Shown here: one piece after another, positions 28,989 through 64,000 of the stretch
How positions within the stretch are numbered: position 1 is the first letter of the stretch
How the letters are laid out: every line of letters begins with the position of its first letter
Source of the DNA: Tubiluchus corallicola
Taxonomy: Eukaryota; Priapulida; Priapulimorpha; Priapulimorphida; Tubiluchidae
DNA: 64,000 nt
Direction of reading: 5' to 3'
NCBI GenBank assembly: GCA_030141605.1
Contig: JAQGDQ010000685.1
Span: 48,914 to 112,913, forward strand
The notes under the pieces: model-generated
What the model saw: only the letters and a program-made list of their open reading frames with translations
What the model was told of the DNA's origin: nothing
Databases searched by the model: none
Made by a program: the position numbers and the translations under genes

Positions 28989-29305
28989 CAGTCGACCCTC
29001 GTTAAACCGGACCCCGTTAGCCCGGATATCGGATAAGACGGACGTCATCCGTGGTAAAGCAAACTGACCGATTTCCGTCCGAGCCGGAGCGCTAAACACA
29101 ACACGGCCTACCAACTGTACAATAATTTCTTTATCCTCACAGGTTAACTATTTTAAAGTAATATACAGTATAGTATATAGTGCAATGTATATAGGCCTTA
29201 TTAAGGTGATTATTCCTGTATAATATAGACCATATATAGGCATATCGGATAAACCGGACCACCAGCACCCCCCCCCCAATTAGTCCGGTTAAACGAAAGT
29301 TGACT
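28989..29305. mobile_element. pogo-like MITE (CAGTCGACCCTCG TIR)
   Basis: Left TIR CAGTCGACCCTCGTTAAACC and right end complement CAGTCAACTTTCGTTTAACC, with TA on each side. 317 bp. A near-identical but right-truncated copy is at 39570-39865. The TA duplication and CAGT...ACTG ends fit the pogo/Tc1-mariner group. Confidence 0.85.
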
Positions 29306-29675
29306 GTACACAGTGAATAGCTATTTACATTTATACGTTAACGTAATAACATCAACGGGTATTAGAATTTGAAAAAATATATTTTTATATTATAGCACTC
29401 TTAGTTTTATTAAATTGTAAAGCTTGTTAAGTTCACACATTTTTATATATTTTAGAATTTGTAATTCAGAAGACGGAAATATGCAGATGATCGATATATA
29501 GGCAGTTATTAGTGTTTTTAGTCAAGGTGTATGACTAGCACTGGTTCACAATAAACTCGAGCAACTTGTTTAGAATGAGAAATACGCGTGTCATACGTTT
29601 TTGAAGATTTTCTTGAGCGGTAGAATTTCCCTAGTAAAAGATAATATATGAGACTGGCATCACAGATGTAGTAGT

Positions 29676-30860
29676 AGCGCAGCTGACAAACAAGCGTGGC
29701 TGACAAACAAGCGCGGCTGACAAACAAGCGCGGCTGACAAACAAGCGCGGCTGACAAACAAGCGCGGCTGACAAACAAGCGCGGCTGACAAACAAGCGCG
29801 GCTGACAAACAAGCGCGGCTGACAAACAAGCGCGGCTGACAAACAAGCGCGGCTGACAAACAAGCGCGGCTGACAAACAAGCGCGGCTGACAAACAAGCG
29901 CGGCTGACAAACAAGCGCGGCTGACAAACAAGCGCGGCTGACAAACAAGCGCGGCTGACAAACAAGCGCGGCTGACAAACAAGCGCGGCTGACAAACAAG
30001 CGCGGCTGACAAACAAGCGCGGCTGACAAACAAGCGCGGCTAAACAAACAAGCGCGGCTGACAAACAAGCGCGGCTGACAAACAAGCGCGGCTGACAAAC
30101 AAGCGCGGCTGACAAACAAGCGCGGCTGACAAACAAGCGCGGCTGACAAACAAGCGCAGCTGACAAACAAGCGTGGCTGACAAACAAGCGCGGCTGACAA
30201 ACAAGCGCGGCTGACAAACAAGCGCGGCTGACAAACAAGCGCGGCTGACAAACAAGCGCGGCTGACAAACAAGCGCGGCTGACAAACAAGCGCGGCTGAC
30301 AAACAAGCGCGGCTGACAAACAAGCGCGGCTGACAAACAAGCGCGGCTGACAAACAAGCGCGGCTGACAAACAAGCGCGGCTGACAAACAAGCGCGGCTG
30401 ACAAACAAGCGCGGCTGACAAACAAGCGCGGCTGACAAACAAGCGTAGCTGACAAACAAGCGTAGCTGACAAACAAGCGTGGCTGACAAACAAGCGTGGC
30501 TGACAAACAAGCGTAGCTAAACAAACAAGCGTAGCTGACAAACAAGCGTGGCTGACAAACAAGCGTGGCTGACAAACAAGCGTAGCTAAACAAACAAGCG
30601 TAGCTGACAAACAAGCGTAGCTGACAAACAAGCATAGCTGACAAACAAGCGTGGCTGACAAACAAGCGTGGCTGACAAACAAGCGTGGCTGACAAACAAG
30701 CGTGGCTGACAAACAAGCGTAGCTAAACAAACAAGCGTAGCTGACAAACAAGCGTAGCTGACAAACAAGCGTGGCTGACAAACAAGCGTAGCTAAACAAA
30801 CAAGCGTAGCTGACAAACAAGCGTAGCTGACAAACAAGCATGGCTGACAAACAAGCGTAG
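29676..30860. repeat. 17-bp minisatellite, about 68 copies
   Basis: The unit is GACAAACAAGCGCGGCT. The left two thirds are almost identical copies of the CGCGG form; from about 30440 onward CGTGG and CGTAG forms dominate and TAAACAAACAAG length variants recur. With a 17-bp period, 17 residues repeat per 51 bp in every frame, which produces long but meaningless open frames on the minus strand. Intergenic. Confidence 0.98.
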
Positions 30861-31028: not shown

Positions 31029-31402
31029 ATTTTCACAGATTCATTTCACACATGTGAGTTGTAGGTCAGAGATTAAGTGTATGACAGCAATGCGTTTTAA
31101 TTACAATTGTCAGGTCATGTATGGATAAAGCAAAGCCATCTGCCGCATCAGTTACTTCAGTTGTTTTATGTGGAGTTTATTTGTTTATTCATTAGTCTGT
31201 GTGTAGAGTGATTTACTAGCAGGATCTTGCTTGGGAACAAAGAAAAAATGAACTAGGTAAGTTCTAATAGCTGTTAAAACTGTTAGTATCACAGCAGCTA
31301 GTTCTGCGACGCATTGTCAACTGCACACAAATGCGTTGTCCAGTACACTTAACCATTTACCTTTTCCTGATCATCATCAATTGCTGGAACTGTGAAAAGG
31401 CT
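31029..31402. mobile_element. MITE family A, copy 4
   Basis: Left end TTTTCACAG (the outermost bases are lost), right end CTGTGAAAAGGCT followed by TA. The interior matches copy 1 (CTAGCAGGATCTTGCTTGGG). Confidence 0.78.
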
Positions 31403-31861
31403 TATTGCAACAGGCTTGACCACTGCCCACTTTACAACTAGTGTAAGAAAACTGAATGCAGCGTGAACCGTAGGACACATTTGCCCATTCCACGTAACAC
31501 CATAAACCAGTAACGACTAGCTAGACACATCATTACAGCTGTTCACAATTTCAATAAAAGCACAAGACTTACCGACCTGAAACTTATTACACGACCGTCG
31601 TCTTCAAGGGGATTACTTACGCACATTTACAAAATTTGACTTGACCAACAAACGAAAATGTACTCAAGTACTTAAAAATGCGATTTCTAAATTTTGATTT
31701 GATATGCAACAAATAAGTATTGTTATAATCAATTACACGAAACAATTACACTAATGCAAAATAAGACAGACTAGTACTGTAGTTGGCAGTCGTACAATGT
31801 TGATAATATTCTAATCAAATTACATGAAACATTTGCATGTCCACAACTAGGCATATCATAT

Positions 31862-32312
31862 ACCATCGTCCAATGAATCACACGTCCAGTGACGTGATTC
31901 TGTTCACCTCCCCATGCCAGGACTCCCTACATGCTGCAATGCCCCAAGTGGATTTATTTCTAAGGATCAATGCTGAAGTGTTTAAATCTTTCTGTGCAAA
32001 ATCTAAGTATGTTAACATCTGTCCTCCTGCAGGTTTTTTAGCTGGTTCTATGGCTTGTTGAAGAGCTATCTTCACTGGAATATCATCAGGTAGTCTAAGC
32101 ATATGCCCAATCCATCTTAAACGGTGTCTTTTTATTTTTCTTGTCCAAGGTTCTTCTTTTATTTTTTCATATAGATCTTTGTATGAAATTTTCTTTGGCC
32201 ATCTGATACCCAAAATGTTTCTGTAATTTTGCCTTTGAAACACATCTATTTCAGCTTTATGATTTGTTTTTAATGTCCAGAGCTCAGAGTTGTACAGAAA
32301 TACAGTTTCAAC
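31862..32312 (-). mobile_element. LINE 3' fragment, same family as 660-1190
   Basis: Minus-strand [32 protein letters not shown] and [17 protein letters not shown]. The reading frame runs on through [20 protein letters not shown] to a stop near 31878, so this copy keeps more of the ORF end than the one at 660. Intergenic, downstream of PPP6C. Confidence 0.85.
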
Positions 32313-32370
32313 TAATACAATCATACACCAGCACATCAGAAACTGCTTCTTTAGTGCTTCGTTCCTAAAA

Positions 32371-32632
32371 CACTGAATCTAGTTAATTTAAACCTGTTTT
32401 TTTCTGAACACATTAAGCAACTGCAGCAAACAGGCCAATACTGTAATATTTACATTACTAAACTAAATTTTCTTCACTCGCTGGTGCACTGATCGAGTTT
32501 GCACTGAATCTAGTTAATTTAAACCTGTTTTTTTTCTGAACACATTAAGCAACTGCAGCAAACGGGTCAATACTGTAATATTTACATTACTAAACTAAAT
32601 TTTGTTTGCTCGCTGGTGCACTGACTGAGTTT
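32371..32632. repeat. 131-bp direct duplication
   Basis: Two head-to-tail copies start at CACTGAATCTAGTTAATTTA (32371 and 32502) with only a few differences. Located just past the PPP6C stop codon side. Confidence 0.9.
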
Positions 32633-32804
32633 ACACTGTTACAATAACCATCACAGTGGAATGTTAACAACTTAAGACAATGTCATCGTTGAATGGTCAT
32701 AGCTGTCGCTACACATTGTAACATAGACACTCAACACGGTAGTTGCATCTTGGATTTCATGGCTGGTCATAACCGCAATTTTTCATCATCAACAGCCCAG
32801 CAAA

Positions 32805-35800
32805 TCATAGGAAATAAGGCGTTGTGATCTGAGGCGGGATGACCCGTTGAGAATCCGGAACGGCGCGGAAAAGTTTCGGTTCTTTAGTTTGTGCATCGGA
32901 GAATGCCAGTATGGAAGCTACGTTTCCACAACGATAGCAGTAATTAGGAGCAGACCACACGGTAACGAGTTTTTCTTCAAACATGAACTTGTACCCTGAA
33001 ATGTGAAGTAGAAGCCTGTGATGATATGGAAAATAAAACACACTGAATAAAACGTTAGTCTGAATCAAAGACCACACGGTAACGAGTTTTTCTTCAAACA
33101 TGAACTTGTACCCTGAAAAAGTGAAGTAGAAGCCTGTGATGATATGGAAAATAAAACACACTGAATAAAACGTTAGTCTGAATCAAAGACCACACGGTAA
33201 CGAGTTTTTCTTCAAACATGAACTTGTACCATGAAATGTGAAGTAGAAGCCTGTGATGATATGGAAAATAAAACACACTGAATAAAACGTTAGTCTGAAT
33301 CAAAGACCATGTGGTAACGAGTTTTTTTCTTCAAACATGAACTTGTACCCTGAAATGTGAAGTAGAAGCCTGTGATGATATGGAAAATAAAACACACTGA
33401 ATAAAACGTTAGTCTGAATCAAAGACCATGTGGTAACGAGTTTTTTTCTTCAAACATGAACTTGTACCCTGAAATGTGAAGTAGAAGCCTGTGATGATAT
33501 GGAAAATAAAACGCACTGAATAAAACGTTAGTCTGAATCAAAGACCACACGGTAACGAGTTTTTCTTCAAACATGAACTTGTACCCTGAAATGTGAAGTA
33601 GAAGCCTGTGATGATATGGAAAATAAAATTCATTGAATAAAACGTTAGTCTGAATCAAAGAAACGTGAGGTAAGAAGTGAATAGCTAAGCAGTTAGAATG
33701 TGTGATTGAATTTAAGCATTACCGAACCTGGTCGGTAATCGAATGGGCGAACGCCAGGTTCAATATATTGTATGGTAGTGTGATTGAATTTAAGCATTAC
33801 CGAACCTGGTCGGTAATCGAATGGGCGAACGCCAGGTTCAATATATTGTATGGTAGTTCTCGAAGCACAATAATACGATTTACAGATTTCGAGTTACGCG
33901 ATGTTTGGTAAACAGAAAATCTGCTCCACGAGATCTGTTCAGAGGTACAAAAGAGCGTTCGAGTTAGAGCGGGTCGAGTTATACATAGTTTACACTATGT
34001 AGAAAAAAACAAATAAATTTCTATACCTTCATGAACAAGCTGGTGAGCTCGGCATATCAGCTTGAGGTTATTCGTGTTAATAAACTCAGTGACTACTTTG
34101 TTCCCGAATAGCCATCCGGCCCCGCGCGGAGACGTCGACCAAGTGTCCACTTCCTCGGGGTCCGACCATACCAAATGTGAGTAGGAGTTAAGGAAGTAAG
34201 TCAATATCATTAAGCTTAGAAGTTGCTAACTAACCATTAAAACCTCCACGTTCGTGTATTTAACCAGTAAAAATTTGTGTCAGTTGTAAAAGTGAAGCAA
34301 ATCCCAATGGCGTGCAGATCTGTTCCGCATATTTGACGAATTTTAGAATCCGTTATAGAAATTAAAATGAAAAATTCTATACCGCCAGATAAGTTAAAAT
34401 TTATATCAGTTCTACTTCAACGTTTTCTAAAATCAGAAAGGAGCTGCAGAAGCCATAGTCTCTCAACTTTTTCTCTTAAAGGGAGATCAAGGAGCTGCAG
34501 AAGGTATAGCCTTTCAACCTTTTCTCTTAAAGGGAGATCAAGGAGCTGCAGAAGCCATAGCCTCTCAACTTTTTCTCTTAAAGGGAGATCAAGGAGCTGC
34601 AGAAGCCATAGCCTCTCAACTTTTTCTCTTAAAGGGAGATCAAGGAGCTGCAGAAGCCATAGCCTCTCAACTTTTTCTCTTAAAGGGGAGATCAAGGAGC
34701 TGCAGAAGCCATAGCCTCTCAACCTTTTCTCTTAAAGGGAGATCAAGGAGCTGCAGAAGCCATAGCCTCTCAACTTTTTCTCTTAAAGGGAGATCAAGGA
34801 GCTGCAGAAGCCATAGCCTCTCAACCTTTTCTCTTAAAGGGAGATCAAGGAGCTGCAGAAGCCATAGCCTCTCAATCTTTTCTCTTAAAGGAAAATCAAG
34901 GCGCTGCAGAAGCCATAGCCTCTCAATTTTTTTCTCTTAAAGGGGAGATCAAGGAGCTGCAGAAGCCATAGGCTCTCAACTTTTTCTGTTAAAGGGAGAT
35001 CAAGGAGCTGCAGAAGCCATAGCCTCTCAACCTTTTCTCTTAAAGGGAGATCAAGGAGGTGCAGAAGCCATAGCCTCTCAACTTTTTCCCTTAAAGGAAG
35101 ATCAAGGAGGTGCAGAAGCCATAGCCTCTCAACTTTTTCTCTTAAAGGAAGATCAAGGAGGTGCAGAAGCCATAGCCTCTCAATCTTTTCTCTTAGAGGG
35201 AGATCAAGGAGCTGCAAAAGCCATAGCCTCTCAACTTTTTCTCTTAAAGGGAGATCAATGAGCTGCAGAAGCCATAGCCTCTCAACCTTTTCTCTTAAAG
35301 GAAGATCAAGGAGCTGCAGAAGCCATAGCCTCTCAACTTTTTCTCTTAAAAGGAGATCATAGTTGTCAATGTTTAAAAATTTATTAGCAAATGTGCCAGA
35401 ATAAGTGATTTTTGCAAAAAGGATATCACAAAAAGCCCCCTGGTGTGGAATTTCTATGCACCGGTCAATTGTCCGAATTTGATCTAAAGTTTTGATCTCA
35501 GGTGACAGACCTCCATGGACACAGAGTATCTGTTCATCTATGATCTGCAAGAAAAATTAACTCTCATTGACGAAAAAAGTCAAAACAGGACGTCATTGGC
35601 ACATATTTAGTTACGTTTATTTTGCAGAGAATGTGTTCTACAGTTTCTTTAAAGCTAATATTACACTCATATCCCGGTTTGCCGGACAAAACCAGGGAGA
35701 TGTCGGTTTGAATTTGCCATTGTCCATATTTTCCGATACTAAGCTAATATAGTAGGCGCTGTTTATTAGACTCACGGTAATGTAGAATCAATCGTTTAAT

Positions 35801-44644: not shown

Positions 44645-47600
44645 ATGGCAGACCCGCTGAGTTTGTTGCGCCAGTATAACATTAATCGAAAAGATATAAT
44701 TGAAAGAGATTCACAAATAATTTTTGGTGAATTTTCATGGCCGAAAGCTGTTAAGACAAACTATTTGGCATGGGGGTAAGCAAATTGTTTTACTGACTTT
44801 ACAGTCATCATTATAGTATGATCTGTTCTAGTATTTTTAAATTCAAGTATGGTCTTAATTGGCTCAAGTATATTTGAATGTATTGTGATCTTTATTTTAA
44901 TTGTTATAACTGTTAAGTCTTGGGGGAAAAGCATAGCTGTGACATTACGTCTTGTCAGATTGTAGTTAGTTATTTCAAAGCAATTGACTTCTTAAATGTA
45001 TTCTTGGGTGCATTGACTGTTTTACAACAGTTCCTTACAATACAGCAGCCTACCAATAGGCAATACCTTACCGTATTGACTGTTTCCATGACACTATAAG
45101 CGCTATGCATATCAACAGAGCTCACTGCATTCTTTCTGCTATTTTTCGTCGCTATTCACGAAAATTGCAAGCAATAATTTTTGGAAACCATGTATCTGTC
45201 GAAATTTAAGCGTGATAATTACAGCTGTAGCATTAACTTATTATTGTACTATTAGACGGAAAAGTTTCCCATCTGTCTATTGCTGAGTGATACTTATTTG
45301 AATGATAGTGATCACATTCGAATGAATACGGATCTTCCACGCGCATTACGCATACATAAAGTCATACCTTTAGTTGTAAATAACAATTGCATTACATTAT
45401 ACTTACTCACAAGTAGGTGGTGCACTGTGTCTAACAGTTGTAGTGGGTAAGACGACAGCAGAAAAAGAATTGTTTGACTGATGTAGCTAGGCTTAGACGT
45501 ACTAAATAGAAGACAAGGAACTTTCATACAATGTGTTTTGTTTGCGCATATATTTGCATATTTTTTTACCGTAAATTGATTTCCAATTATGTACTACTTT
45601 CAGGTCAGGAAGGGATGGAACTGCAAAAGAGTATTATACATTGGACTGCGTGCTTTTCTTATTGAAAAATGTTCATCTTTCTCATGGCATATACGTCCGA
45701 CAAGCTGCGGTAATTATCCAACTTTTTAACTATTCATGCAGCCTAGGTGCTGACCGCCTTAACCCTTTCATACCCGTGGTATCCCGTGGGATACGAGAAT
45801 ATTTTCTGCTTTTAAAATTAATAAAATTTTAAAACTGACAGTTGTTTGATCTGTTAATAGTTATTTTGATTTAAGCCAATAACAACAGACTAAAAATGGT
45901 GATAAAATGGCAAACTAGAAAGTCTGCATAGCATAAGAACTGTGCGAGGTACAGTACTCTAGAAATGACTTTGTACAGGTCAGCATAGCATGCATACTAA
46001 ATGTCTTAAATACTTTAAAAAATTACCAACAGTTGCAAAATGAAGCACATTTCATGCTTCCATTGAATCCCAATGTATCCCGTGGGATACAGGCTATATT
46101 TAGCACGCGGGCACAGGTAGAAAAAAAATAATTATTATGTGTAAACAAGATGGACATACTGAACAAAAGTACCAAGCCAAAATTTTTTTTCTTATTAAAA
46201 AATAAAATGGGACTGAAAGGGTTAAAACTTGACATTATTGAAGTTTTTTCATTATATGCACCTTGCTGAATTACTTCAGTTACGATACTTAGTCAGTTAC
46301 GATTCTTAGATCTCATATTTTTCAAACCACTTACCATGTGTAGATTGTTATCTGTGGTTATAAGGAGGCTTAAGCATTAGTGATTCATATTTTTGTTAGC
46401 ACTAAAATCTTGCACATAAATATTACGGAAAAACCTTTTTCATTTCATGAATTAAAAACATTTTGAGCGGGTTTTGCGAAATAAGTGAGCCAGTGGTAAA
46501 CGATTTTATATGGCAGTTGTCTGTAGAAAATTATCAGTGCAGATTGTAAAAATACAGTTGACTTTAAGCCTAGTTTAGTTTGTCAGTGTCAGTTGAAGAT
46601 GCCGAAAGAATTGATACCCACTTTAAATCTACAGGTAGTTGCAGTGACTTACTACCTATGCGATTTACGACTATTCTACTTTAAGTAATTAATTATGCGA
46701 AACCAACTATAACTCATGTTTCTTTGTATTTTTTAAGCAAATTAACTTTAAATAGCTATCTGTTTTGATAAATGAATCGTAGGCACCGCCATACTTAGTG
46801 CACGTACACATGCACCATTTTCCGTGTTGGGATCTAGACTGTGCCGGTCCGACTTGCGTTAAATTCATCTTATGACCAATCCGGTGGTCTCAATTGTGGT
46901 CTGTCATCGACTTGTAATTGCATTTTCTACCCTTTGCCGGTACTACCCATTTTCAAGGAAGTTTTGTCAACATCTTTACTAGGCTGAAAACATACCGGTT
47001 GTGCGACGTCCAGACAGGAGAGATCTTCTAGCTTATCTCAATGGGGAGACGAGTACCTCAGCCAGTATTGACAGGAGTGCTCCGTTGGAACTTCCCTCGC
47101 AAGGTAACATCTGCTTTACGATGTTTTTGCTTTGTTTGTTTGCGCATAATTGTTATAAGAAAACAAAAGCATTTTGAGCTACTCGCATCATTACATTATT
47201 AGGAAGCCATGTTTTCTCGGTAACCACTGAACCAGTTTGTAACAAATAAGAAATCAGAAGAACCATTTATCCTTTTATGGTCTTACGGAAGGTTTATTTT
47301 CTAAAATTAAATCCATCAATAACGCCCATTAAAGATTATATATATATATTATATATTATATATTATACACATATATATATATTGAAGAATTAAACGTAAC
47401 ATCAAGCTCATGAACATGAATATAATTATATGTACCTAATATATATATTTATATTTTATATATTATCATTATTATTTATATTATATGTATTAGCTTGATG
47501 TTGAGTTTAAGTCTTCAAGGGTATATGTGTATTTGCTCATCTATAAATGTATCAAAAAGTAAGTATATATATATGTATATACAATGTTATAAATGTTTGA

Positions 47601-50600
47601 AAGCAATGCTAAATGAGAGTTTGAAAAACATTTACGCCTAATCTGGGGCACGAACCCACGCCTTCTATTATCCATGTGGCGAGCACTAACTTTCATTATT
47701 TTTGTGCAGTTAAGAGGTCGGCACCAGAGCCAGCACCCGAAGTTACAAAGAAACCAAGAATTGAGGTAAAACACGATCGCCATTCGTTTACCAGTCGTAC
47801 CTTGTGTTGCTTAACTCTGTAGCCGAGCGGAATCATCGCTTGGTTATAGCCTCATCATACTTGGTTTTAGTTGGCGTGCTCGGTCAACTGGAATTCCCTT
47901 TTAAATGTTATTTTGTGACGAATAATGAGCACGAAACCGGTGTGCAAGGGAAATGCGCAGAACTAGCAAGTTTTGTTGGCTCCCCATCAACAAACCACCT
48001 TCTCTCAACCTTCTATTATCCTGATTGTAACTCGTTCTTCTTTCAATCTGCTTCATTACTATATTTAATTCTAATGGCAGGTTCAGACTAACGAGTTTTC
48101 TTTCGCAACTTTAAATTCGCAAGTGTGGACTGCTTTGCGAATTGCTATCGGTAAGAATTTGCTGATAGAACGACTATCTAGTGTGAACGCTTCGGCGAGT
48201 AACTCTCGACTCTTCTCACAGGGAGGAGAGAAATGAGTGTCAAGTGTCAATTCGCGCTTACTGTCGCAGAGTAACTTGCAGGAAGTGTTATTTTCTTGTA
48301 CGAACATGCTTGCGAGTTACTTTGCCAGTTACTTGGCGAGTTAACTTGGCAAGAATGCTCGCCAACACATAGTTTTGTTGTACGTACGTGCAGTTATTGT
48401 AGGTCAAAAAATGATAAAACCAACTATAAGCAGCTAAAATTGACAAGGTAAGATCATTTATGGCTGCTCCCTTAGTGGTTTATTAAGCAGTGACTACTAT
48501 ATTTTCATATCTATTAGTAATATTCACCTTTCATAATTTTAAATGATTGTTTTTAAGAAAGTGATGCTTGATGTTTGCTGTTAAAGACATTATGTGTTTA
48601 TTATTATTGTTTAGTGACGTTCACCTTCATGTTTTCAGGAAGAGAAGGTGGCAGCTGCAAAAGAGAGACTTGCCGCTCGTTTAGATGCACCAAAAGAGGG
48701 AAGGGTTCAAGCTTATCAGCATGAAATCAGGTTTGGTGTTAAATGTATGCTAGGTGTTGGTCTTCCAGCCATTCATTCCTGTAAAATTTGAATATGTGTC
48801 TTTGTCCCTTATATATTTTCAGGTCTGCTTAGTTTAAAAATTTAGTCTATCAATACATAAATGATGTTTTTAGTCCCTGAACATCGTTATTAAGGGTTTA
48901 AACAGTGGCGGTTCACAGCTAAAATTAGTGGGGGCGCTGCTTCAGAACATTTTTAGCCATTGTTTTAATATTGTGTAAAATGAAACAAACATATAAAAAG
49001 AAACTTATACATAAATGTGATAAAATCCTAAATAAAAATTTATTTACTTTATAGTTGTTACAGTTCAAGTTAAATTGATTTAATGAATTATTTTACTAAG
49101 TTTAAATTGATCCATTCATTTTAAAAAGAAAATCCATTCTTCTCGTTTTAGTTTGCGCGAAAAGATTAATAATTTTCTTCTTGATCTGTCAGCACTCTCT
49201 ACCTCTCTTTCTACCTATCCTGCAGCATCTTATTTCAAACATGTGCACGTGGCTGCATGCACACAGCAGCCAAACACCACGTTGCTACAGCTGTGAAGCG
49301 TACAGTCCTGAAATTGTGCTTTGCACAGTTCTGTAATGTGCTCTGATTACATATAAGAGTTTACAAGTATGAAGCAACAATTAAAGAAAAAAGACTCATT
49401 GTATTGAATATTAACAATAATATCGAATGAAAATAGAGGGTACGATGCCTATACGAAGAGCCGCCACTGGGTTTAAAACACATGTTCAATATCTAAACGA
49501 ATGATTCCTCACACTGACTAGTTTTACTTTTTAGATGCAATGATTTCTATTAACTTTGAAAAGTTGTCTTAATTATATTACGGAAATGTTCTCTTTTTTT
49601 CACCTTTGTTATAATTGGTAATTATATTCGGTGTTATGAAATTCGTTAGTTTCGATTTAGGTCTGCAAAGCCTGCTTAATAGTTTCTTATTCTCTTGTTT
49701 AACAGAGACTACGAAAGCTTTTTGTGCTCTTTTCATTAGATCACTATCTGAGACAATGTCTGTAGAGAAAATCCTCGCTATCAAAGCGAAGCGTTTGGCA
49801 AAGAAACGCACGATGATTAAAGGCGTCGGTGAGCCGGACGACGGACTCCTGGAACAGCGAAGCTTCGTCGACGCAGAAGTGGACGTGACTAGAGATATTG
49901 TCAGCAGAGAGCGGTTATGGAGGACGCGGACTACTATACTGCAAAGTACAGGAAAGGTAAATGTTTTGTAACTTGATAACTATTTGTAGTGTGTTAGTGA
50001 TGGTGATGTGCAATGATTCTGAAACTGATAGAAACCAGCCATGTTTTCCACCCTTGCAGGCACTAGGGTCTTAGAAACTAGCCATGTTTTCCACCCTTGC
50101 AGGCACCAGGGTCTTAGAAACTAGCCATGTTTTCCACCCTTGCAGGCATCAGGGTCTCAGAAACTAACCATGTTTTCCACCCTTGCAGGCACCAAAGTCT
50201 TAGAAATTAGCCATGTTTTCCACCCTTGCAGGCACCATTGTCTTAGAAACTAGCCATGTTTTCCACCCATGCAAGCACCAGGGTCTTAGAAACTAGCCAT
50301 GTTTTCCACCCATGCAAGCACCAACGTCTTAGAAACTAGCCATGTTTTCCACCCATGCAAGCACCAGGGTCTTAGAAACCAGCCATGTTTTCCACCCATG
50401 CAAGCACCAGGGTCTTAGAAACTAGCCATGTTTTCCACCCATGCAGGCACCAACGTCTTAGAAACTAGCCATGTTTTCCACCGATGCATGCACCAACGTC
50501 TTAGAAACTAGCCATGTTTTCCACCCATGCAGGCACCATTGTCTTAGAAACTAGCCATGTTTTCCACCCTGCACGCACCAGGGTCTTAGAAACTAGCCAT

Positions 50601-53600
50601 ATTTTACACCCATGCAGGCACCAAGGTCTTAGAAACTAGCCATGTTTTCCACCCTTGCAAGCACCAGGGTCTTAGAAACTAGCCATGTTTTCCACCCTTG
50701 CAGGCACCAGGGTCTTAGAAACTAGCCATGTTTTCCACCCTTGCAGGCACCAGGGTCTTAGAAACTAGCCATGTTTTCCACCCATGCAAGCACCAGGGTC
50801 TTAGAAACTAGCCATGTTTTCCACCCTTGCAGGCACCAGGATCTTAGAAACTAGCCATGTTTTCCACCCTTGCAGGCACCAGGGTCTCAGAAACTAACCA
50901 TGTTTTCCACCCTTGCAGGCACCAAAGTCTTAGAAATTAGCCATGTTTTACACCCATGCAGGCACCAGGGTCTTAGAAACTAGCCCTGTTTTCCACCAAT
51001 GCAAGCACTAGGGTCTTAGAAACTAGCCATGTTTTCCACCCATGCAGGCACTTTTGTCTTAGAAACCAGTCATGTTTTCCACCCATGCAGGCACCAAGGT
51101 CTTAGAAACTAACCATGTTTTCTACCCATGCAAGCACCAAGGTCTTAGAAACTAGCCATGTTTTCCACCCATGCAAGCACCAGGGTCTTAGAAACTAACC
51201 ATGTTTTCCACCCATGCAGGCACCAGGGTCTTAGAAACTAGCCATGTTTTCCACCCATGCAAGCACCAGGGTCTTAGAAACTAGTCATGTTTTCCACCCA
51301 TGAAAGCACCAGGGTCTTAGAAACTAGCCATGTTTTCCACCCATGCAAGTACTAGGGTCTTAGAAACTAACCATGTTTTCCACCCATGCAGGCACCAGGG
51401 TCTTAGAAACTAGCCATGTTTTCCACCCATGCAAGTACTAGGGTCTTAGAAACTAACCATGTTTTCCACCCATGCAGGCACCAGGGTCTTAGAAACTAGC
51501 CATGTTTTCCACCCATGTAGGCACCAGGGTCTTAGAAACTAGTCATGTTTTCCACCCATGCAAGCACCAAGGTCTTAGAAACATGCCATGTTTTCCACCC
51601 TTGCAAGCACCAGGGTCTTAGAAACTAACCATGTTTTCCACCCATGCAGGCACCAGGGTCTTAGAAACTAGCCATGTTTTCCACCCATGCAAGCACCAGG
51701 GTCTTAGAAACTAGCCATGTTTTCCACCCATGCAAGCACCAGGGTCTTAGAAACTAGCCATGTTTTCCACCCATGCAAGTACTAGGGTCTTAGAAACTAA
51801 CCATGTTTTCCACCCATGCAGGCACCAGGGTCTTAGAAACTAGCCATGTTTTCCACCCATGCAGGCACCAGGGTCTTAGAAACTAGCCATGTTTTCCACC
51901 CATGTAGGCACCGGGGTCTTGTGCAGAAACTACAGGAATACATGTCAGAAGATTTTTGAAGAATTCTTAGAAGTTATTCAGTCACACATTCACTCACTCT
52001 ATCTGTCACTTTTTCAACTTTTCAACTCTAAATGAGCTACTCCAGAAGCTCCTAAATGAAGTTACTCCAAAAGTGTTCATCCAAGTGAAATTGATTGGGT
52101 AGTGTGTCCTTGGTCCCAGGCAACAGATTTGTCACAATTAGCTAATTAATTAGACATGTTTAATTAATTAATATTATTTGATCCATTTCCAAATATATTT
52201 AACCGAGTTGAATTTTTTTGTGATGATTAGCTAAGACGTCCTTGATTCAAGATCCAAAATTTGTAGCAGTTTGTAAATTAGTTGATTAATTACAGCTGTT
52301 GAATTAATTTTCAATTGATTTGCACAGCATCAAACCTCATTCGTTTGATAGCCCTCTGTCAGTTCTGTTGCATTTTAGTCCACATTTATCCTTGCAAACC
52401 TTGATGCTCGTGTAGTAAACCTTTAGATTTTCTCATTGTATTTTGTAGAATTTTGCTAAGAATATATTTGGTATCTTGGCATCTATTAAAGCCAGAGAGG
52501 AAGGGGTTAAACAACCCGATGCACAAGCCAAGGCTCCAGTTGTTAACAACAATGAAGTAAAAGTAAGTCGATTTTTTTTTGTAGCTTTCTAGTTTTTTAA
52601 GCCTGTGTCCATTAGAAATTGGGCTCCACATTGTTTGTGTTCTATCATAAATGTAACTCATACGCTAAGTCCTCGCTTAACGACGCTACTGCGTTCCAGC
52701 AAAACACGGCGTTAAGCGTAACGTCGTTAAACAAAGGCTTCCATAGAAAGTAATGTAAAATGTACTAATGTAAAATCAATGGAAAGTAATGCAAAATGAG
52801 GTACGTTCCAGAATAAAAAATCAGCGTTACTTAAATCATGTAAATTAAACGTTTCATGAATTTTATTGAATGTTTCTAATGATTTATCTCTTGTTAACAT
52901 TTAAGTTTAGGCCAGGGTTGTGCAAATTGTGGCCCGCGGGCCACTTGCGGCCCGCCGAGAGAATTTGTGCGGCCCGCGCAGAGATTTGTCAACCTAATGA
53001 AAGTGCGGCCCGGGCGATTAATTGAGTGTATCCAGCTGAAGTCCGTGCCACGATCCCAAAGATAGTGCGGATAGTTTTTTCTACTAGATCGGATGCCATT
53101 AACCCTTACAAGACGGTTGTAGCTTAATAACACTGTACTACACAGACTGTGTGATACACATTACTAATATGCATTGTAATGAAATTACCACTATCTGTCC
53201 TGAAAGTAGAAATATATGGTTTGTAATATAGATTTTAATAACTTCTAAAATAGTTTCTTGAGTGTAGTAGTAATGATGTACGCAGGTCGGATGCAAAAAA
53301 AATCGTTATTAGGCCTTTCTGTACTTGGCTCCTTGATCAAACTGCCTGTGGGCCACAGGAATTGCGGGAAAGTTTAATGTGGCCCGGCTAGTCAGATAAT
53401 TTGCACACCCCTGGTTTAGGCAGTGGATAAACAATAATCACTGTAGCAGAGCCAATGCCAAGCACGGGGCGACCTCGGCAATTTTATCTAGTCTAGTTAC
53501 TATAGCAACAGGTTGCAGGCAAAATTTCTTACTCCCATGTCTCGCTTGATACAAACGTGTAGCATTTAGTGGTCAGTTGGAAAGCAGAAACATATACTTA

Positions 53601-56600
53601 TGTAGCATTTAGTGGTCAGTTGGAAAGCGGAAACGTCTACTTATGTAGCATTTAGTGGTCAGTTGGAAAGCAGAAACATATACTTATGTAGCATTTAGTG
53701 GTCAGTTGGAAAGCAGAAACGTATACTTATGTAGCATTTAGTGGTCAGTTGGAAAGCAGAAACGTCTACTTATGTAGCATTTAGTGGTCAGTTGGAAAGC
53801 AGAAACGTATACTTATGTAGCATTTAGTGGTCAGTTGGAAAGCAGAAACGTATACTTATGTAGCATTTAGTGGTCAGTTGGAAAGCAGAAACGTATACTT
53901 ATGTAGCATTTAGTGGTCAGTTGGAAAGCAGAAACGTATACTTATGTAGCATTTAGTGGTCAGTTGGAAAGCAGAAATGCACTCTTATGTAGCAGTTAGT
54001 GGTCAGTTGGAAAGCAGAAACATATACTTATGTAGCATTTAGTGGTCAGTTGGAAAGCAGAAACGTGTACTTATGTACCATTTAGTGGTCAGTTGGAAAG
54101 CAGAAACGTATACTTATGTAGCATTTAGTGCTCAGTTGGAAAGCAAAAACGTATACTTATGTAGCATTTAGTGCTCAGTTGGAAAGCAGAAACGTATACT
54201 TATGTAGCATTTAGTGGTCAGTTGGAAAGCAGAAACATATACTTATGTAGCATTTAGTGGTCAGTTGGAAAGCAGAAACGTATACTTATGTAGCATTTAG
54301 TGGTCAGTTGGAAAGCAGAAACGTATACTTATGTAGCATTTAGTGGTCAGTTGGAAAGCAGAAACGCACACTTATGTAGCATTTAGTGGTCAGTTGGAAA
54401 GCAGAAACGTCTACTTATGTAGCATTTAGTGGTCAGTTGGAAAGCAGAAACGTATACTTATGTAGCATTTAGTGGTCAGTTGGAAAGCAGAAACATATAC
54501 TTATGTAGCATTTAGTGGTCAGTTGGAAAGCAGAAACGCACACTTATGTACCATTTAGTGGTCAGTTGGAAAGCAGAAACGTCTACTTATGTAGCATTTA
54601 GTGGTCAGTTGGAAAGCGGAAACGTATACTTATGTAGCATTTAGTGCTCAGTTGGAAAGCGGAAACGTCTACTTATGTAGCATTTAGTGGTCAGTTGGAA
54701 AGCAGAAACATATACTTATGTAGCATTTAGTGGTCAGTTGGAAAGCAGAAACGTATACTTATGTAGCATTTAGTGGTCAGTTGGAAAGCAGAAACGTATA
54801 CTTATGTAGCATTTAGTGGTCAGTTGGAAAGCAGAAACGCACACTTATGTAGCATTTAGTGGTCAGTTGGAAAGCAGAAACGTATACTTATGTAGCATTT
54901 AGTGGTCAGTTGGAAAGCAGAAACGTATACTTATGTAGCATTTAGTGGTCAGTTGGAAAGCAGAAACGTATACTTATGTAGCATTTAGTGGTCAGTTGGA
55001 AAGCAGAAACGTATACTTATGTAGCATTTAGTGGTCAGTTGGAAAGCAGAAACGTATACTTATGTAGCATTTAGTGGTCAGTTGGAAAGCAGAAACGTAT
55101 ACTTATGTAGCATTTAGTGGTCAGTTGGAAAGCAGAAACGTATACTTATGTAGCATTTAGTGGTCAGTTGGAAAGCAGAAACGTATACTTATGTAGCATT
55201 TAGTGGTCAGTTGGAAAGCAGAAACGTCTACTTATGTAGCATTTAGTGGTCAGTTGGAAAGCAGAAACGTATACTTATGTAGCATTTAGTGGTCAGTTGG
55301 AAAGCAGAAACGTATACTTATGTAGCATTTAGTGGTCAGTTGGAAAGCAGAAACGTATACTTATGTAGCATTTAGTGGTCAGTTGGAAAGCAGAAACGTA
55401 TACTTATGTAGCATTTAGTGGTCAGTTGGAAAGCAGAAACGTATACTTATGTAGCATTTAGTGGTCAGTTGGAAAGCAGAAACGTCTACTTATGTAGCAT
55501 TTAGTGGTCAGTTGGAAAGCAGAAACGTATACTTATGTAGCATTTAGTGGTCAGTTGGAAAGCAGAAACGTATACTTATGTAGCATTTAGTGGTCAGTTG
55601 GAAAGCAGAAACGTATACTTATGTAGCATTTAGTGGTCAGTTGGAAAGCAGAAACGTATACTTATGTAGCATTTAGTGGTCAGTTGGAAAGCAGAAACGT
55701 ATACTTATGTAGCATTTAGTGGTCAGTTGGAAAGCAGAAACGTATACTTATGTAGCATTTAGTGGTCAGTTGGAAAGCAGAAACGTATACTTATGTAGCA
55801 TTTAGTGGTCAGTTGGAAAGCAGAAACGTATACTTATGTAGCATTTAGTGGTCAGTTGGAAAGCAGAAACGTATACTTATGTAGCATTTAGTGGTCAGTT
55901 GGAAAGCAGAAACGTATACTTATGTAGCATTTAGTGGTCAGTTGGAAAGCAGAAACGTATACTTATGTAGCATTTAGTGGTCAGTTGGAAAGCAGAAACG
56001 TATACTTATGTAGCATTTAGTGGTCAGTTGGAAAGCAGAAACGTATACTTATGTAGCATTTAGTGGTCAGTTGGAAAGCAGAAACGTATACTTATGTAGC
56101 ATTTAGTGGTCAGTTGGAAAGCAGAAACGTATACTTATGTAGCATTTAGTGGTCAGTTGGAAAGCGAAACGTACTTATGTAGCATTTAGTGGTCAGTTGG
56201 AAAGCAGAAACGTATACTTATGTAGCATTTAGTGGTCAGTTGGAAAGCAGAAACGTATACTTATGTAGCATTTAGTGGTCAGTTGGAAAGCAAAAACGTA
56301 TACTTATGTAGCATTTAGTGGTCAGTTGGAAAGCAGAAACGTATACTTATGTAGCATTTAGTGGTCAGTTGGAAAGCAGAAACGTATACTTATGTAGTAA
56401 TTGCACCGTTTACATTACTAGTGCATATTCAGAACACACTTATGTAGTAATTGCACTGTTTACATTACTAGTGCATATTTAGAACAGAATAATGCAATAT
56501 GTACTGGTGTAATTCTTCAAATTAGGTATAAATGTTGTTGATAAAATAAAAATTGGCTTTGAGCCAAGTAAAAAAAAAATCGTCGTTAAGCAGAAAAGGA

Positions 56601-59600
56601 TGTTAAACGATCGGCAGCGCTAAAACGAAATGTCGCTAAACGGAGGACTTACTGTATCAGCTTTTGTGTATTTTGTCAACTTACTTAGATTAATTTACTT
56701 ATCGTTACACACAATAATATAAACACGTGCAATTGTAAATACTTAATACTTGCTGTTTTGTTTCTAGCAAACAACAAAACCTCAACAGCCTGTAGTATAT
56801 AACAGATACGAACAAGAACAGCTAACGAAATCAAAAGAAGGTACAATTTTCTTTATAGTATAATATGTACAAAAAAGCTTATCGTTTTCTCATTTTTACA
56901 CCTGCCTAACATTTAATTGCTCGGCATCCTTCTGTCTCGGAAGACAATGGAGTGTGCGCCAAGAGAGTCAGTTATTGATCACATTGATGGAGCTGCAGCG
57001 TCGACTGTGGCTGAGCAGTGCGATCCTTGAACGTCTCCAGGGCACACGCCTGGGCAAGGTGTATGGAGATCCTGAGTTGCCCGGACATCAGGAATCCCTT
57101 CTCTTCCTCCCTGGTGTAGTCCAAAGGAAAGCGGAGCGATACGTTTGGCACCAGGTTGGCTGCAGGAGTTGCCGGAGTCAGTGAGCATGCTGTACTGGTC
57201 AGCCTTCGGGGCTCCACTCCTGATTTGGAAGGTTTACTCCTCTACACATGGCCGTTGGGTTCCTTGACCTCCTCCGCCCTCTAGCCATTGGCTGCTTGTG
57301 CAGCTCCTCCGCCCTCTAGCCGTTGGCTGCTTGTGCAGCTCCTCCACCTAGTGTCGAGATACAGTGTGGGCAACATTTAATAAAGGCATAATAATCTTGG
57401 GGTCAATTAAACATTTGTTAATTGAGTATGAAATACAGGAAGCATAAAAAGCTTTACAGGAAATGACTTCCTTCGAACAAAAATGTTTTGTTAGTGAGTA
57501 ATGAAAGCAAGAAACATTTTTCTTTGTAGCTATGTCAATGGTAAATAGACTGGCAAATAACCGTTTTTATTTTTCGTCCTGCAGAAACGGAAGGATTTAA
57601 AATCGACACCATCGGTTCTTACCACGGCATGACATTGAAGTCGGTGACAGAGGGCGCTTCGGCTCGGAAAGCTTTGCCCGAACCACAACAACCACAGACG
57701 CAGCAGCCGAAACCGATATCACAGGCAAGACCACCAACTTCTAGTAAAAGAGGTAACATTTTCACTCTCTCCTGTGAAAGTTCAATGAAGTCTGTTCATG
57801 TAGCTGATCTGTTTTTTTAAGTGAAACAGTGCAGGGATGAGAATTTTCCGCGCAAATTCCGAGTTTTGACTAGTTGGCAGGCCGTCACTTTATTTACATC
57901 ACGTGCATCAGTGTAACCACGTGTTTATCTCTATGTATAAAAACATAGAATCAATTGTGCAGAGTTATTTGAGTCAATTGCAGACAGTTTTTATATAATT
58001 TTGCATAGGAGCGGCCAGTACTTAGGCGTTTTTGAGACAATTAGGTATCATGTATCCTTGATAGTTGGGTATTTTAAATTATGCATGAAACAAGGTAATT
58101 GATATTTTAAGTCCACTTAGAGGCTCTCTATGGCCACAAAATTGTAGGCTGCTTAAGTGGGGGCTTAAGTGGCCCCAAAACTCCCAGCCTGTTTCAGAGT
58201 TTTTTGCAATTTGTCATTCTCATCCCTGACAGTGTGAGAGTATGGTTTTATTTTTCAGGTTCTCGCACACCGATTATCATCATTCCAGCAGCAACTACGT
58301 CAATTATAACCATGTACAATGTGAAGGACATGCTACAAGATACGAGGTTGGTAAAATATTTCATATCTACATTTACATACATCGTTTGGAAACATTAGTT
58401 TTACCCAAGAAAGTTTTCCACAAATGCGTTTCTTGTAGGTTCATAAGTACAGACGATAAGAAGAAACAAGGAGCTAAGAGAGATAACGAAGTTTTGATAC
58501 AGCGTCGAAAAGAGGGTGGACATACGGTGCCATACAGAGTCATTGATAATCCACTTAAATTAGCACAGGAAGACTGGTATGACTGTTACTCAATTTCCTG
58601 AATGAATCATGATTTTTTTGCCTCAAATGTCATTGATAATCCACTTAAATTAGCACCGGAAGACTGGTATGACTGTTACTCAATTTCCTGAATGAATCAT
58701 GATTTTTTTGCCTCAAATGTCATTGATAATCCACTTAAATTAGCACCGGAAGACTGGTATGACTGTTACTCAATTTCCTGAATGAATCGTGATTTTTTTG
58801 CCTCAAATGTCATTGATAATCCACTTAAATTAGCACCGGAAGACTGGTATGACTGTTACTCAATTTCCTGAATGAATCATGATTTTTTCGCCTCAAATGT
58901 CATTGATAATCCACTTAAATTAGCACCGGAAGACTGGTATGACTGTTACTCAATTTCCTGAATGAATCGTGATTTTTTTGCCTCAAATGTCATTGATAAT
59001 CCACTTAAATTAGCACCGGAAGACTGGTATGACTGTTACTCCGTTTCCTGAATGAATCGTGATTTTTTTGCCTCAAATGTCATTGATAATCCACTTAAAT
59101 TAGCACCGGAAGACTGGTATGACTGTTACTCCGTTTCCTGAATGTACAGTGCCATACAGAGTCATTGATAATCCACTTAAATTAGCACCGGAAGACTGGT
59201 ATGACTGTTACTCCGTTTCCTGAATGAATCATGATTTTTTTGCCTCAAATGTCATTGATAATCCACTTAAATTAGCACCGGAAGACTGGTATGACTGTTA
59301 CTCAATTTCCTGAATGAATCATGATTTTTTTGCCTCAAATGTCATTGATAATCCACTTAAATTAGCACCGGAAGACTGGTATGACTGTTACTCAATTTCC
59401 TGAATGAATCGTGATTTTTTTGCCTCAAATGTCATTGATAATCCACTTAAATTAGCACCGGAAGACTGGTATGACTGTTACTGTATTTCCTGAATGTTCA
59501 GTGCCATACAGAGTCATTGATAATCCACTTAAATTAGCACCGGAAGACTGGTATGACTGTTACTCTATTTCCTGAATGTGCAGTGCCATTCAGAGTCATT

Positions 59601-61929
59601 CATAATCCACTTAAATTAGCACCGGAAGACTGGTATGACTGTTACTCCATTTCCTGAATGTTCAGTGCCATACAGAGTCATTGATAATCCACTTAAATTA
59701 GCACCGGAAGACTGGTATGACTGTTACTCCATTTCCTGAATGTACAGTGCCATACAGAGTCATTCATAATCCACTTAAATTAGCACCAGAAGACTGGTAT
59801 GACTGTTACTCTATTTCCTGAATGTTCAGTGCCATACAGAGTCATTCATAATCCACTTAAATTAGCACCGGAAGACTGGTATGACTGTTACTCCATTTCC
59901 TGAATGTACAGTGCCATACAGAGTCATTCATAATCCACTTAAATTAGCACCAGAAGACTGGTATGACTGTTACTCTATTTCCTGAATGTTCAGTGCCATA
60001 CAGAGTCATTGATAATCCACTTAAATTAGCACCGGAAGACTGGTATGACTGTTACTCTATTTCCTGAATGTTCAGTGCCATACAGAGTCATTCATAATCC
60101 ACTTAAATTAGCACCGGAAGACTGGTATGACTGTTACTCTATTTCCTGAATGTACAGTGCCATACAGAGTCATTGATAATCCACTTAAATTAGCACCGGA
60201 AGACTGGTATGACTGTTACTCTATTTCCTGAATGTTCAGTGCCATACAGAGTCATTGATAATCCACTTAAATTAGCACCGGAAGACTGGTATGACTGTTA
60301 CTCTATTTCCTGAATGTGCAGTGCCATACAGAGTCATTCATAATCCACTTAAATTAGCACCGGAAGACTGGTATGACTGTTACTCTATTTCCTGAATGTT
60401 CAGTGCCATACAGAGTCATTGATAATCCACTTAAATTAGCACCGGAAGACTGGTATGACTGTTACTCTATTTCCTGAATGTACAGTGCCATACAGAGTCA
60501 TTGATAATCCACTTAAATTAGCACCGGAAGACTGGTATGACTGTTACTCTATTTCCTGAATGTACAGTGCCATACAGAGTCATTCATAATCCACTTAAAT
60601 TAGCACCAGAAGACTGGTATGACTGTTGCTCAATTTCCTGAATGAATCGTGATTTTTTTGCCTCAAATGTATCCTTTTGCCCAAAAATAAATTTTCCTTT
60701 ATCAAAGTTTAATAGCTTCATAGATTTGAAAGAAAGCGGGCTGATGTTTTTAACATAAGAAAATAGTCAGAATTTTTTCAACAACACTGCAGGACCCAGA
60801 TTTTTCAAATTAGCACTTTTTACTGACTTTATACGAAACTCATGCAGGCTGAATCCACATGCCAGCCCCATTGTTCGCTGTTGCTCGAAAATATGTAACG
60901 ATGATCTCGGCTAGTTAACTTTGAAACAGGCTAACCCCGTTGTGGTCAGCGGTCAAACAAATTAGCTGCACACGGTGTCAGGCAATCAGAATCAGGGATG
61001 AGAATTTTCCGCGGATACGCGGAATTCCGAGTATTTGGAAGACCAATAGTTTTTACGGACTATGTATAAAAACATAGAATCAATTGTGTGGAGTTATTTG
61101 AGTCAATTGCAGACAGTTTTTATATACTTTTGCATAGGAGCGGCCAGTACTTAGGCATTTTTGAGTCAATTAGGTATCATGTATCCTTGATAGTTGGGTA
61201 TTTTAAATTATGAAACGGGTAATTGATGTTTTAAGTTCACTTAGAGGCTCTCTATGGTCACAAAATTGCAATTTGTTGCTGGCTCCCCTTGAACTCCATT
61301 GGGGGCCTAGATGGCCCTAAAACCCCCGGCCTGTTTCAGAGTTTTTTACAATTGGTCATTCTCATCCCTGCAGAATATTCATTAGCATAGATTTGCGCTA
61401 ATAATTTTGCTCCGCGTTACTTAAAATGCTGAAAAACTGCCAAAACACGTTAAACCACCAAGTTGGTTTCCTTGATTATGAGTTTTGGATAGTGCTGCCA
61501 CCTTCAGGTGTTCTTGTTAAAATTGTTAAAGCTTTCTCTTTACTGTTTAAATTTTCATTGGCTTCTACAGTCTTTATGAATGCATAATCTCTAAACCTGT
61601 TTTCACACCTAAATGATTTCACCTGTAGTTTTGGTCACTTGGTTTTCTGCTTTTCAACAGGACACTACTTCACTGTTTATGTAGACACTTCAGAATAAAA
61701 TCTTAAAACCAGTTTTTTGGTTTCTTCAAACCAGCCACCTATAAGGGATTTCTAAGTTTTCATGAAATTATGCATCTGATTTTGTTACCAAATTGTTTTC
61801 AAATATTTCTATTATGTTTTTCCGCTTTGTTTAACAGGGATAGAGTCGTGGCCGTGTTTGTGCAGGGACCAGCCTGGCAATTCAAGGGATGGCCATGGAA
61901 CGGGAATCCAGTGGAGATTTTTGACCGAA
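44645..61929 (+). CDS. CDC73: CDC73/parafibromin, exons 1-12 (last coding part inverted or missing)
   Basis: Cdc73 is a PAF1-complex subunit that binds RNA polymerase II during elongation. Exons: 44645-44775, 45604-45709, 46983-47103, 47710-47765, 48639-48730, 49740-49956, 52449-52562, 56768-56840, 57585-57752, 58259-58346, 58439-58576, 61838-61929. All introns are GT-AG and phases agree; 465 complete codons. Landmarks: [13 protein letters not shown] start, [107 protein letters not shown] and [16 protein letters not shown]. Exon 12 starts the Ras-like C-terminal domain and ends in phase 1 at GTATGG. The next exon is found only on the opposite strand (63183-63324), and no terminal exon was seen. 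Introns are crowded with MITEs and three large satellites. Confidence 0.96.
45763..46221. mobile_element. piggyBac-like MITE with TTAA duplication
   Basis: TTAA on both sides, ends CCCTTTCATACCC and, complemented, CCCTTTCAGTCCC. A 16-bp palindrome GTATCCCGTGGGATAC occurs near each end (about 45779 and 46075). 459 bp, CDC73 intron 2. TTAA plus CCCT ends fit piggyBac; Kolobok also uses TTAA. Confidence 0.83.
47331..47500. repeat. AT-rich microsatellite block
   Basis: Interrupted TATATA runs surround an inverted pair around ACATCAAGCT / AGCTTGATGT. CDC73 intron 3. Confidence 0.7.
48903..49469. mobile_element. hAT MITE with 8-bp TSD
   Basis: TIRs CAGTGGCGGTTC and GAGCCGCCACTG, target duplication GGTTTAAA on both sides. 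567 bp, CDC73 intron 5. Unrelated in its ends to the hAT copies at 41767 and 52913. Confidence 0.9.
50031..51919. repeat. 43-bp minisatellite, about 44 copies
   Basis: The unit is TTAGAAACTAGCCATGTTTT + CCACCCATGCAAGCACCAGG + GTC. TTGCAGG/ATGCAAG/ATGCAGG variants come in blocks, and multi-unit blocks recur, so expansion copied several units at a time. CDC73 intron 6. Confidence 0.97.
52913..53413. mobile_element. hAT MITE, copy 2, 8-bp TSD
   Basis: TIRs CAGGGTTGTGCAAATT and AATTTGCACACCCCTG, duplication GTTTAGGC on both sides. Reverse orientation relative to 41767-42187. Nested in the family C relic. Confidence 0.92.
53559..56396. repeat. 43-bp minisatellite, about 66 copies
   Basis: The unit is GTAGCATTTAGTGGTCAGTT + GGAAAGCAGAAACGTATACT + TAT. 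The right half (from about 54880) is nearly homogeneous; the left half has more variants (CATATAC, GTCTAC, GCACAC, GCTCAG). CDC73 intron 7. Confidence 0.98.
56918..57371 (-). mobile_element. Retroposon-like interspersed repeat, copy 2, 10-bp TSD
   Basis: Reverse-complement relative of 38515-38952, flanked by AACATTTAAT at 56908-56917 and 57372-57381. It carries an extra internal duplication of CAGCTCCTCCGCCCTCTAGC near 57260-57340. CDC73 intron 8. Confidence 0.85.
57832..58228 (+). mobile_element. MITE family B, copy 3
   Basis: CAGGGATGAG / CTCATCCCTG ends, duplication ACAGTG on both sides. 397 bp. Its right end is 30 bp before CDC73 exon 58259-58346, so it supplies the sequence just upstream of that acceptor. 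Confidence 0.93.
58541..60665 (+). repeat. 90/82-bp tandem array spanning the CDC73 exon 11 donor
   Basis: The 3' end of exon 11 (coding [13 protein letters not shown]) with its donor GACTG|GTATGA is followed by 24 further copies. The common motif CCACTTAAATTAGCAC starts at 58551 in the exon and then at 58641 through 60591. Early units are 90 bp (ending GCCTCAAAT); most later units are 82 bp and include more exon sequence (GTGCCATACAGAGTCATTGA). Copies read LAPEDW where the exon has LAQEDW. Reading past the first donor meets a stop (YDCYSIS then TGA). Confidence 0.97.
60993..61370 (+). mobile_element. MITE family B, copy 4
   Basis: CAGGGATGAG / CTCATCCCTG ends with CAGAAT duplicated on both sides. 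378 bp. CDC73 intron 11. Confidence 0.93.
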
Positions 61930-63182
61930 GTATGGACAGATAATAATTTTGTTGTTATATGAACGACCTCCTGTTCTCCACAGAAAACAGCGGAATTCAG
62001 GAAAATGGGCATCTGAAACAGAAATACCTATGAAAACCGGAATTAGCGCGATTTCCGACTTTTCTGTAAATTTAATGCATCTTTGACGCGGAATTTTCTT
62101 CCCTTGTTACTTGCAAAACTAAGCCGTTTTTTCAGCATTTCGCAACTTTAATAGAAGTACTTCCTCGAGTTTTATTTTTTATGCAACTTGCGTTCCTACT
62201 TTCCCTTTTTCGTATTTGCCACAAGAAATTTGGGAAATCCTTTAGTGCGAGGCTTGTAACGAATAGCAGTACATTTGTGGAAAGGTTTCCCATGTTGACA
62301 CAAACACGATATGACGATGTTATGCGTGTGACAGCTAGCTTCCTGATGATTTGTATTGCGGATGCGCCCAGTCCAGGCAAAGAAACGGCAAAAATCAGTA
62401 TTGAACTCTGCGATAGACCTGCATTTTATTAAAATAACAGATCACAAAAAGTGCTTAAGAATGTGCTAAAGGTTATTACTATTTAGACAAAATAAAAAGT
62501 TAGATTTAAGAAGACACAAATTATTACTTTATGATTCTAGACATTTGAAGCAATTCTAACCAATTTAAACTATTAACTAATTATTAAAGTAGATGGTGAC
62601 TTACATTTACTGGTGACAACTTTGACTTGAAAATACAATTAGGGACTGTTAAATTGTAACAAAATAGACAAAGCAATGCAAGTATCACCAAAATGGCATG
62701 ATCAGCATAGCGGCAACAGAAAATGTAACTACGTGTAAGAACAAGTGTGATTGATAGGTGGCGTATACTACTAAAGCTTAGGTCACATGACTAAGGCTGG
62801 CTTTGTTTTAAACACTTTCAGGAAATGCATGTTGGTAAAAATGCGAAAAGAAGACAAATAATTATAGAATGCTAGATTAAATTGCTTGACACCAACATGT
62901 ATGAATATGATAGGATATTGTTCTGTAACTTTTGTGCGCGAATTAAATGTTGGCGTTCTTATTTTATTTTAGCCAAATACAAATACCTGATAGAGTACAT
63001 ACTTAATTCATATAAAAAAATTATTGTTTTTTATTACCATCTATCGAACATCACATAATTTGAGGATTAGTATTAGTTACCGGGCCATGTAGCTTCTAAT
63101 TTCTGCGAAGCGGAATTGAAACAGAATTGATGATTCTTTGAAAATTACGAAGGCCCTTCTTCGCAAACTCATCCATACTTAC
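61930..63182. other. Sequence between CDC73 exon 12 and the inverted exon
   Basis: AT-rich, no repeat family recognised and no exon found on either strand. One edge of the inversion that turned exon 13 must lie here if the inversion is real. Confidence 0.5.
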
Positions 63183-63324
63183 TTGTCCAAAACTTCCCAA
63201 AACTTGATTAACGACGCCCGATCTAAATGTCTCTTCATCTTGCTCAGTTGAATCACATGAACCGACCACTTGGCAACGTTTGAATCTAGCGGCAGTTCAT
63301 CCCATTTTACGTGAAATGCTTTAA
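63183..63324 (-). CDS. CDC73: CDC73 exon 13 on the opposite strand (C-terminal Ras-like domain)
   Basis: Minus-strand translation reads IKAFHVKWDELPLDSNVAKW, then SVHVIQLSKMKRHLD and IKFWEVLDK, matching the segment after the FVQGPAW exon in Cdc73 proteins. It has its own acceptor (TATTGCAG) and donor (AA|GTAAGT). It starts in phase 1: the single A left over at the end of plus-strand exon 12 plus TT gives the expected Ile. It ends in phase 2, as expected before the last dozen residues. The sequence is undamaged. As presented it cannot be spliced to exon 12. Either the segment is inverted in this individual or species, or the assembly has a local orientation error, or this is a second copy and the plus-strand original lies beyond the window. 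Confidence 0.93.
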
Positions 63325-63529
63325 CTGCAATATGAACATGAACCGTGAACAAAAACGTGAACATGAACAGTATCTCATTGGCTGTTATGCAAATTCAAGA
63401 CGAAACACAGACAGATTTATAAAATATTTGGAACAATAATCATAATATCATAGTCCCATAATCAAAATGTTAATGTAAAAAATTTATTCGCATTTTACAT
63501 GTGTTAGCATGGCATAGATTACGTATATA

Positions 63530-64000
63530 TATATATAAATAATAATCTTTATTTGCCATTAAAATACATTGATAATCACCGATAAAAACTTTACAGAGAT
63601 GATCAATCAGTGTTAGTTAATAAAAACTTACACTGCTGAAGGCAAATGAGTCAGTGCAATCTAAACTACTGTGCAGTAATGGAAAGTAACGACGAATAAA
63701 ATCAAACATATTTACAGCTATGCACAAAAAAATGAAAAAAACTATGATTTAATTAATATGGCCGTGGATATATGAATTCTGAATTAGTGTGTATGTTGTC
63801 GTGCTGGTGTGATGGTATTTCATATCTGGTTAATATTAGTGATTTTAATTTTGTTTTAAATGCTGATGGAGACTTGATTTGTTTAACCTGTAATGGTAGA
63901 GAATTCCAAAAAGTGAATTGGTTGTTTGATTACAGAGTTCGTTCCATAGTGGGTATTTGTCCTAATTTGTTTTAGATTGCTTGTTCTGGAATTAACGATA
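63530..64000 (-). mobile_element. LINE 3' end, same family as 3309-3725
   Basis: Minus-strand [20 protein letters not shown] then LKSLILTRYEIPSHQ is a typical ORF2 C-terminus, followed by a 3' UTR ending AATAAAGATTATT and an (AT)n run at about 63524-63537. It continues past the window edge. A frame break precedes the quoted part. Confidence 0.82.

Follow-up and report, generated by a model that had tools for sequence, protein, structure and literature searches.

An apparently inverted CDC73 exon in Tubiluchus corallicola is most likely an assembly artefact at a contig end

The stretch of DNA analysed here (the window, 64,000 nucleotides) is part of the genome assembly of the priapulid Tubiluchus corallicola and corresponds to positions 48914-112913 of a contig of 112,913 bases, C1507; position 64000 of the window is hence the last base of this contig. 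The window harbors exons of CDC73, identified by Pfam profile searches of the genome. The preliminary description had placed all exons upstream of exon 13 on the plus strand, and the CDC73 matches found upstream (four to CDC73_N, two to CDC73_C) are all in this orientation. The features of the gene and of its 3' end are the following:

44645-44782, 45596-45709, 46980-47102 and 49735-49968, plus strand: CDC73_N matches (N-terminal exons)
58261-58356 and 58431-58583, plus strand: two upstream CDC73_C matches
58527-60644, plus strand: tandem array in intron 11 with a unit of 82/90 bp, made of the last part of exon 11 together with the splice donor
61838-61929, plus strand: CDC73 exon 12, flanked by TTTAACAG and GTATGG, matching CDC73_C
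63137-63143, plus strand: junction with a 7-bp inverted microhomology, TTTGAAA (C1494 30639-30633, minus strand, and 29711-29717, plus strand)
63144-64000, minus strand: terminal segment of 857 bases, flipped relative to contig C1494 and reaching the last base of C1507
63183-63324, minus strand: CDC73 exon 13, flanked by an intact acceptor (ATTGCAG) and donor (GTAAGT), matching CDC73_C

Exons 12 and 13 were described as oppositely oriented, with intact splice sites and matching phases, and this is confirmed by their flanks, by their in-frame joining and by the profile matches. Exon 12 followed by the reverse complement of exon 13 reads in frame to a peptide ending in FWEVLDK, and both exons score above the cut-off in the genome search with CDC73_C (PF05179; E=7.3e-8 for exon 12, E=1.0e-8 for exon 13). 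The Pfam match rules out that exon 13 is a chance open frame. Stops reported within two of the CDC73_N matches sit at the edges of these matches, after LAWG and before AENIPV, and are read as exon edges rather than broken frames. Exon 13 is located 676 bp from the end of the contig.

The 3' limit of exon 11 is position 58576, and the donor sequence GACTG/GTATGA has 25 exact occurrences in the intron 11 array, including the true donor at 58576/58577; 24 near-identical donor copies thus lie downstream of the true one within the 2.1 kb of the array. In many of the 82-bp units, an AG also precedes the exon-like part at a short distance. Intron 12 carries a dispersed repeat (about 62354-62897), for which the best 40 of 1,533 candidates, those that were scored, include at least 37 other long genomic matches (92-96% identity). 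Four long minisatellites are found elsewhere in the window:

9128-10630: unit of 30 bp, 49.9 copies
29676-30857: unit of 17 bp, 69.2 copies
50029-51920: unit of 43 bp, 44.0 copies
53558-56397: unit of 43 bp, 66.1 copies

The genome search with PF05179, in which all 8 of 8 candidates were scored, returned seven matches. Two of them are exon 13, on C1507 and on a second contig, C1494. Exon 12 accounts for three, one on C1507 and two on C1494, and the two upstream matches are confined to C1507. Exon 13 thus occurs at two places in the genome, in agreement with a further genome search. CDC73_N has four matches, all on C1507 (5 of 5 candidates scored). A second CDC73 gene is unsupported, as CDC73_N is restricted to C1507 and exon 13 to two places. 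On C1494, the 3' part of the gene is arranged as follows:

31952-31861, minus strand: exon 12, collinear
29898-29757, minus strand: exon 13, collinear
28527-28491, minus strand: exon 14 (terminal), encoding YMIKHKPHLRW followed by a stop, from a motif search

The three exons lie on one strand and in the normal order, and their spliced frame is open to the C terminus. The resulting 89 residues match CDC73_C with E=1.1e-28 (100.3 bits, for a cut-off of 32.8). In a comparison with human parafibromin (6ted_X, 531 residues), the spliced C terminus aligns to residues 440-531 (E=1e-37), the match reaching the last residue of the chain. It matches the CDC73/parafibromin family (PF05179) with no anomaly in the 89 residues compared, and what is unusual is the layout of the contig. 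Between C1507 and C1494, exon 12 shows no base difference (0/92) and exon 13 a single, silent one (1/142).

This copy bears on several claims of the preliminary description. Its suggestion of a remarkable fixed inversion is contradicted by the collinear exons 12-13-14, and the alternative it offered, a mis-oriented assembly segment, is the better supported of the two given the correctly ordered copy. It had also named a second intact exon 13 beyond position 64000 as evidence against a true inversion; in substance such an exon exists, collinear with its neighbors 12 and 14, on C1494 and not on C1507, which ends at 64000. Exon 13 belongs to the C-terminal part of the gene, as had been proposed, but it is not the last exon: the motif search for YMIKHKPHLRW-stop finds its match on C1494 and none in the window.

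Comparison of the two contigs delimits the flipped segment. Window positions 61479-63143 match C1494 32319-30633 on the opposite strand at 96.9% identity (30 mismatches and 22 gap positions in 1687), and positions 63134-64000 match C1494 29707-30583 on the same strand at 96.6% (16 mismatches and 14 gap positions in 879). As the match is on the opposite strand until 63143 and on the same strand after it, only the last 857 bases of C1507 are flipped. The join falls in the heptamer TTTGAAA; C1494 has this heptamer on either side of the segment, one copy inverted relative to the other. C1507 stops 49 bases short of the point where either a second breakpoint or the retrace of a foldback would begin; this contig therefore cannot by itself discriminate between an inversion and a foldback. 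Likewise, a self-pair search of the tail of the window detected no pair, the contig stopping before any retrace would start.

The end of C1494 does contain such a retrace. Positions 34358-35523 repeat 31302-32467 exactly in reverse orientation (1,166 bp), with a loop of 1.9 kb between the two, and the second arm ends 15 bases from the last base of the contig. This foldback yields the second exon 12 of C1494, in the opposite orientation. Two parts of the loop, 32449-32902 and 33038-33459 (~0.9 kb), align with the plus strand of the window's intron 11; the orientation of this match fits the plus-strand exon 12 on the right and not the minus-strand exons on the left. The rest of the loop, to about 34357, has no good match in window positions 54000-64000. 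At the join, at 32467, there is an exact match of 4 bp (10/12 if imperfect matches are allowed) with the last unit of the intron 11 tandem array.

Inverted pairs were also searched for at other contig ends. From each of 20 contigs picked by number, the first and the last 4,500 bases were taken (40 end pieces); the internal control comprised 27 pieces of that length, of which 12 came from the sampled contigs, 13 from the window and 2 from C1494. With a strict threshold (inverted pairs no shorter than 200 bp and no less than 88% identical), pairs were found in 6/40 ends and 0/27 internal pieces (one-sided Fisher p=0.038), a modest p-value for a threshold chosen after a first look at the data. 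The six pairs, at the right ends of C974 and C1083 and the left ends of C1302, C1420, C1888 and C2255, have identities of 88.9-99.8% and loops of 0.5-2.6 kb. Their outer arm lies at most 2 bp from the contig end in five of the six; this precise coincidence of arm and end carries more weight than the rest of the control. Overlapping hits are numerous for several of the pairs, which have a repetitive look, and an assembly may also be stopped by a genuine inverted repeat. Pieces containing N are also confined to the ends (6/40, against 0/27 internal). Once every inverted pair from 100 bp upward is accepted, including palindromes (loose threshold), pairs are found in 8/40 ends and 4/27 internal pieces, with no clear contrast; as the loose threshold removes most of the difference, the control is support and not proof. 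A literature search on inverted duplication at contig ends found no paper.

Taken as a whole, the data are very probably explained by a single-copy CDC73 with a normal exon order, divided over two abutting contigs, C1507 and C1494, each of which would end in a terminal foldback chimera. The contigs would overlap at their ends, where they probably represent two haplotypes of ~97% identity. Where it meets a short inverted microhomology, each contig would switch strand to a point ~0.9 kb (window) or 1.9 kb (C1494) ahead and then run back. The retrace is observed in C1494, and we infer that the tail of the window is a foldback as well; this contig would end within the loop, so that only exon 13 and its surroundings look flipped. 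The strand switch presumably arose in the library, the reads or the assembly and not in the animal. A possible route is priming by a displaced 3' end on a displaced strand close by, as happens when chimeras form during multiple displacement amplification (MDA); another is a strand-switched read of a different origin.

In the MDA study by Lasken and Stockwell (2007, PMC1855051), 406 of 475 chimeras are inversions, and complementarity is reported for 93.5% of the inverted joins less than 10 kb apart. The two joins described here resemble the inverted chimeras of that account: each links segments less than 10 kb apart (0.9 and 1.9 kb) that share a short complementary sequence (7 bp and 4 bp). They differ from them in being seen at the level of contigs rather than of single reads. 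The geometry would fit a 3' end that anneals further on to a displaced strand and from there copies in the reverse direction, and another strand-switching artefact would look alike.

An inverted haplotype was the other alternative of the preliminary description, and the present data only make it unlikely. It would take the form of a real heterozygous inversion of ~0.9 kb between the 7-bp inverted repeats: exon 13 would be flipped on the C1507 haplotype, leaving the 3' end of CDC73 non-functional, and the C1494 haplotype would be intact. If true, one of two segregating haplotypes of this animal would carry a null allele of CDC73, a Paf1-complex gene, kept in the heterozygous state. The tail and the collinear part have similar identities to C1494 (96.6% and 96.9%), which suggests that both belong to one and the same diverged haplotype, and a microhomology of 7 bp at the join fits a real small inversion equally well. 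C1507 nevertheless ends just before the second breakpoint would show, C1494 terminates in a foldback with the same geometry, and skipping of exon 13 (142 bp) shifts the frame, which is costly for a gene of the Paf1 complex. No sequence elsewhere in the assembly matches the predicted far-side junction, as composed from C1494, even when three mismatches are allowed. This search is weak, because C1507 ends before that place and the pattern comes from the other haplotype, which may differ, and gaps or withheld stretches of the assembly could hide a match. A genome search with C1494 26000-29720 recovered the whole stretch on C1494 only, and no second contig carrying the inverted allele onward, among the best 40 of 5,350 candidates; only ~1 kb of this query is informative, as much of the query is a tandem array (26000-28145) and about 29192-29655 is a dispersed repeat with at least 39 further long matches.

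Still more improbable is that exon 12 lies within a real inverted duplication and that each contig holds a different part of it. C1494 does have exon 12 both ways round with identical arms, but arms of 1,166 bp without any difference are hard to reconcile with the ~3% divergence between C1507 and C1494, and the second arm stops 15 bp from the contig end. The absence of a second exon 13 on C1494 is uninformative here, since the contig ends before one could appear. Finally, for a fixed inversion in which CDC73 is rescued by trans-splicing or by a replacement exon, the written orientation of the window is the sole point in favor; given the intact collinear exons on C1494, in the same genome, its probability is close to nil. 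A fixed inversion in CDC73 is not supported, and one with a functional consequence is ruled out by the collinear gene.

The result of the looser control, together with the limits of the onward-contig and far-junction searches, slightly weakens the support for an artefact. The flip of exon 13 nonetheless remains most likely an assembly artefact at the end of C1507 rather than a true inversion, and it leaves the knowledge of CDC73 unchanged. It is a caution for this assembly: contig-end foldbacks can mimic both exon inversions and exon duplications, and structural claims that concern the terminal few kb of a contig therefore need a second contig or reads.
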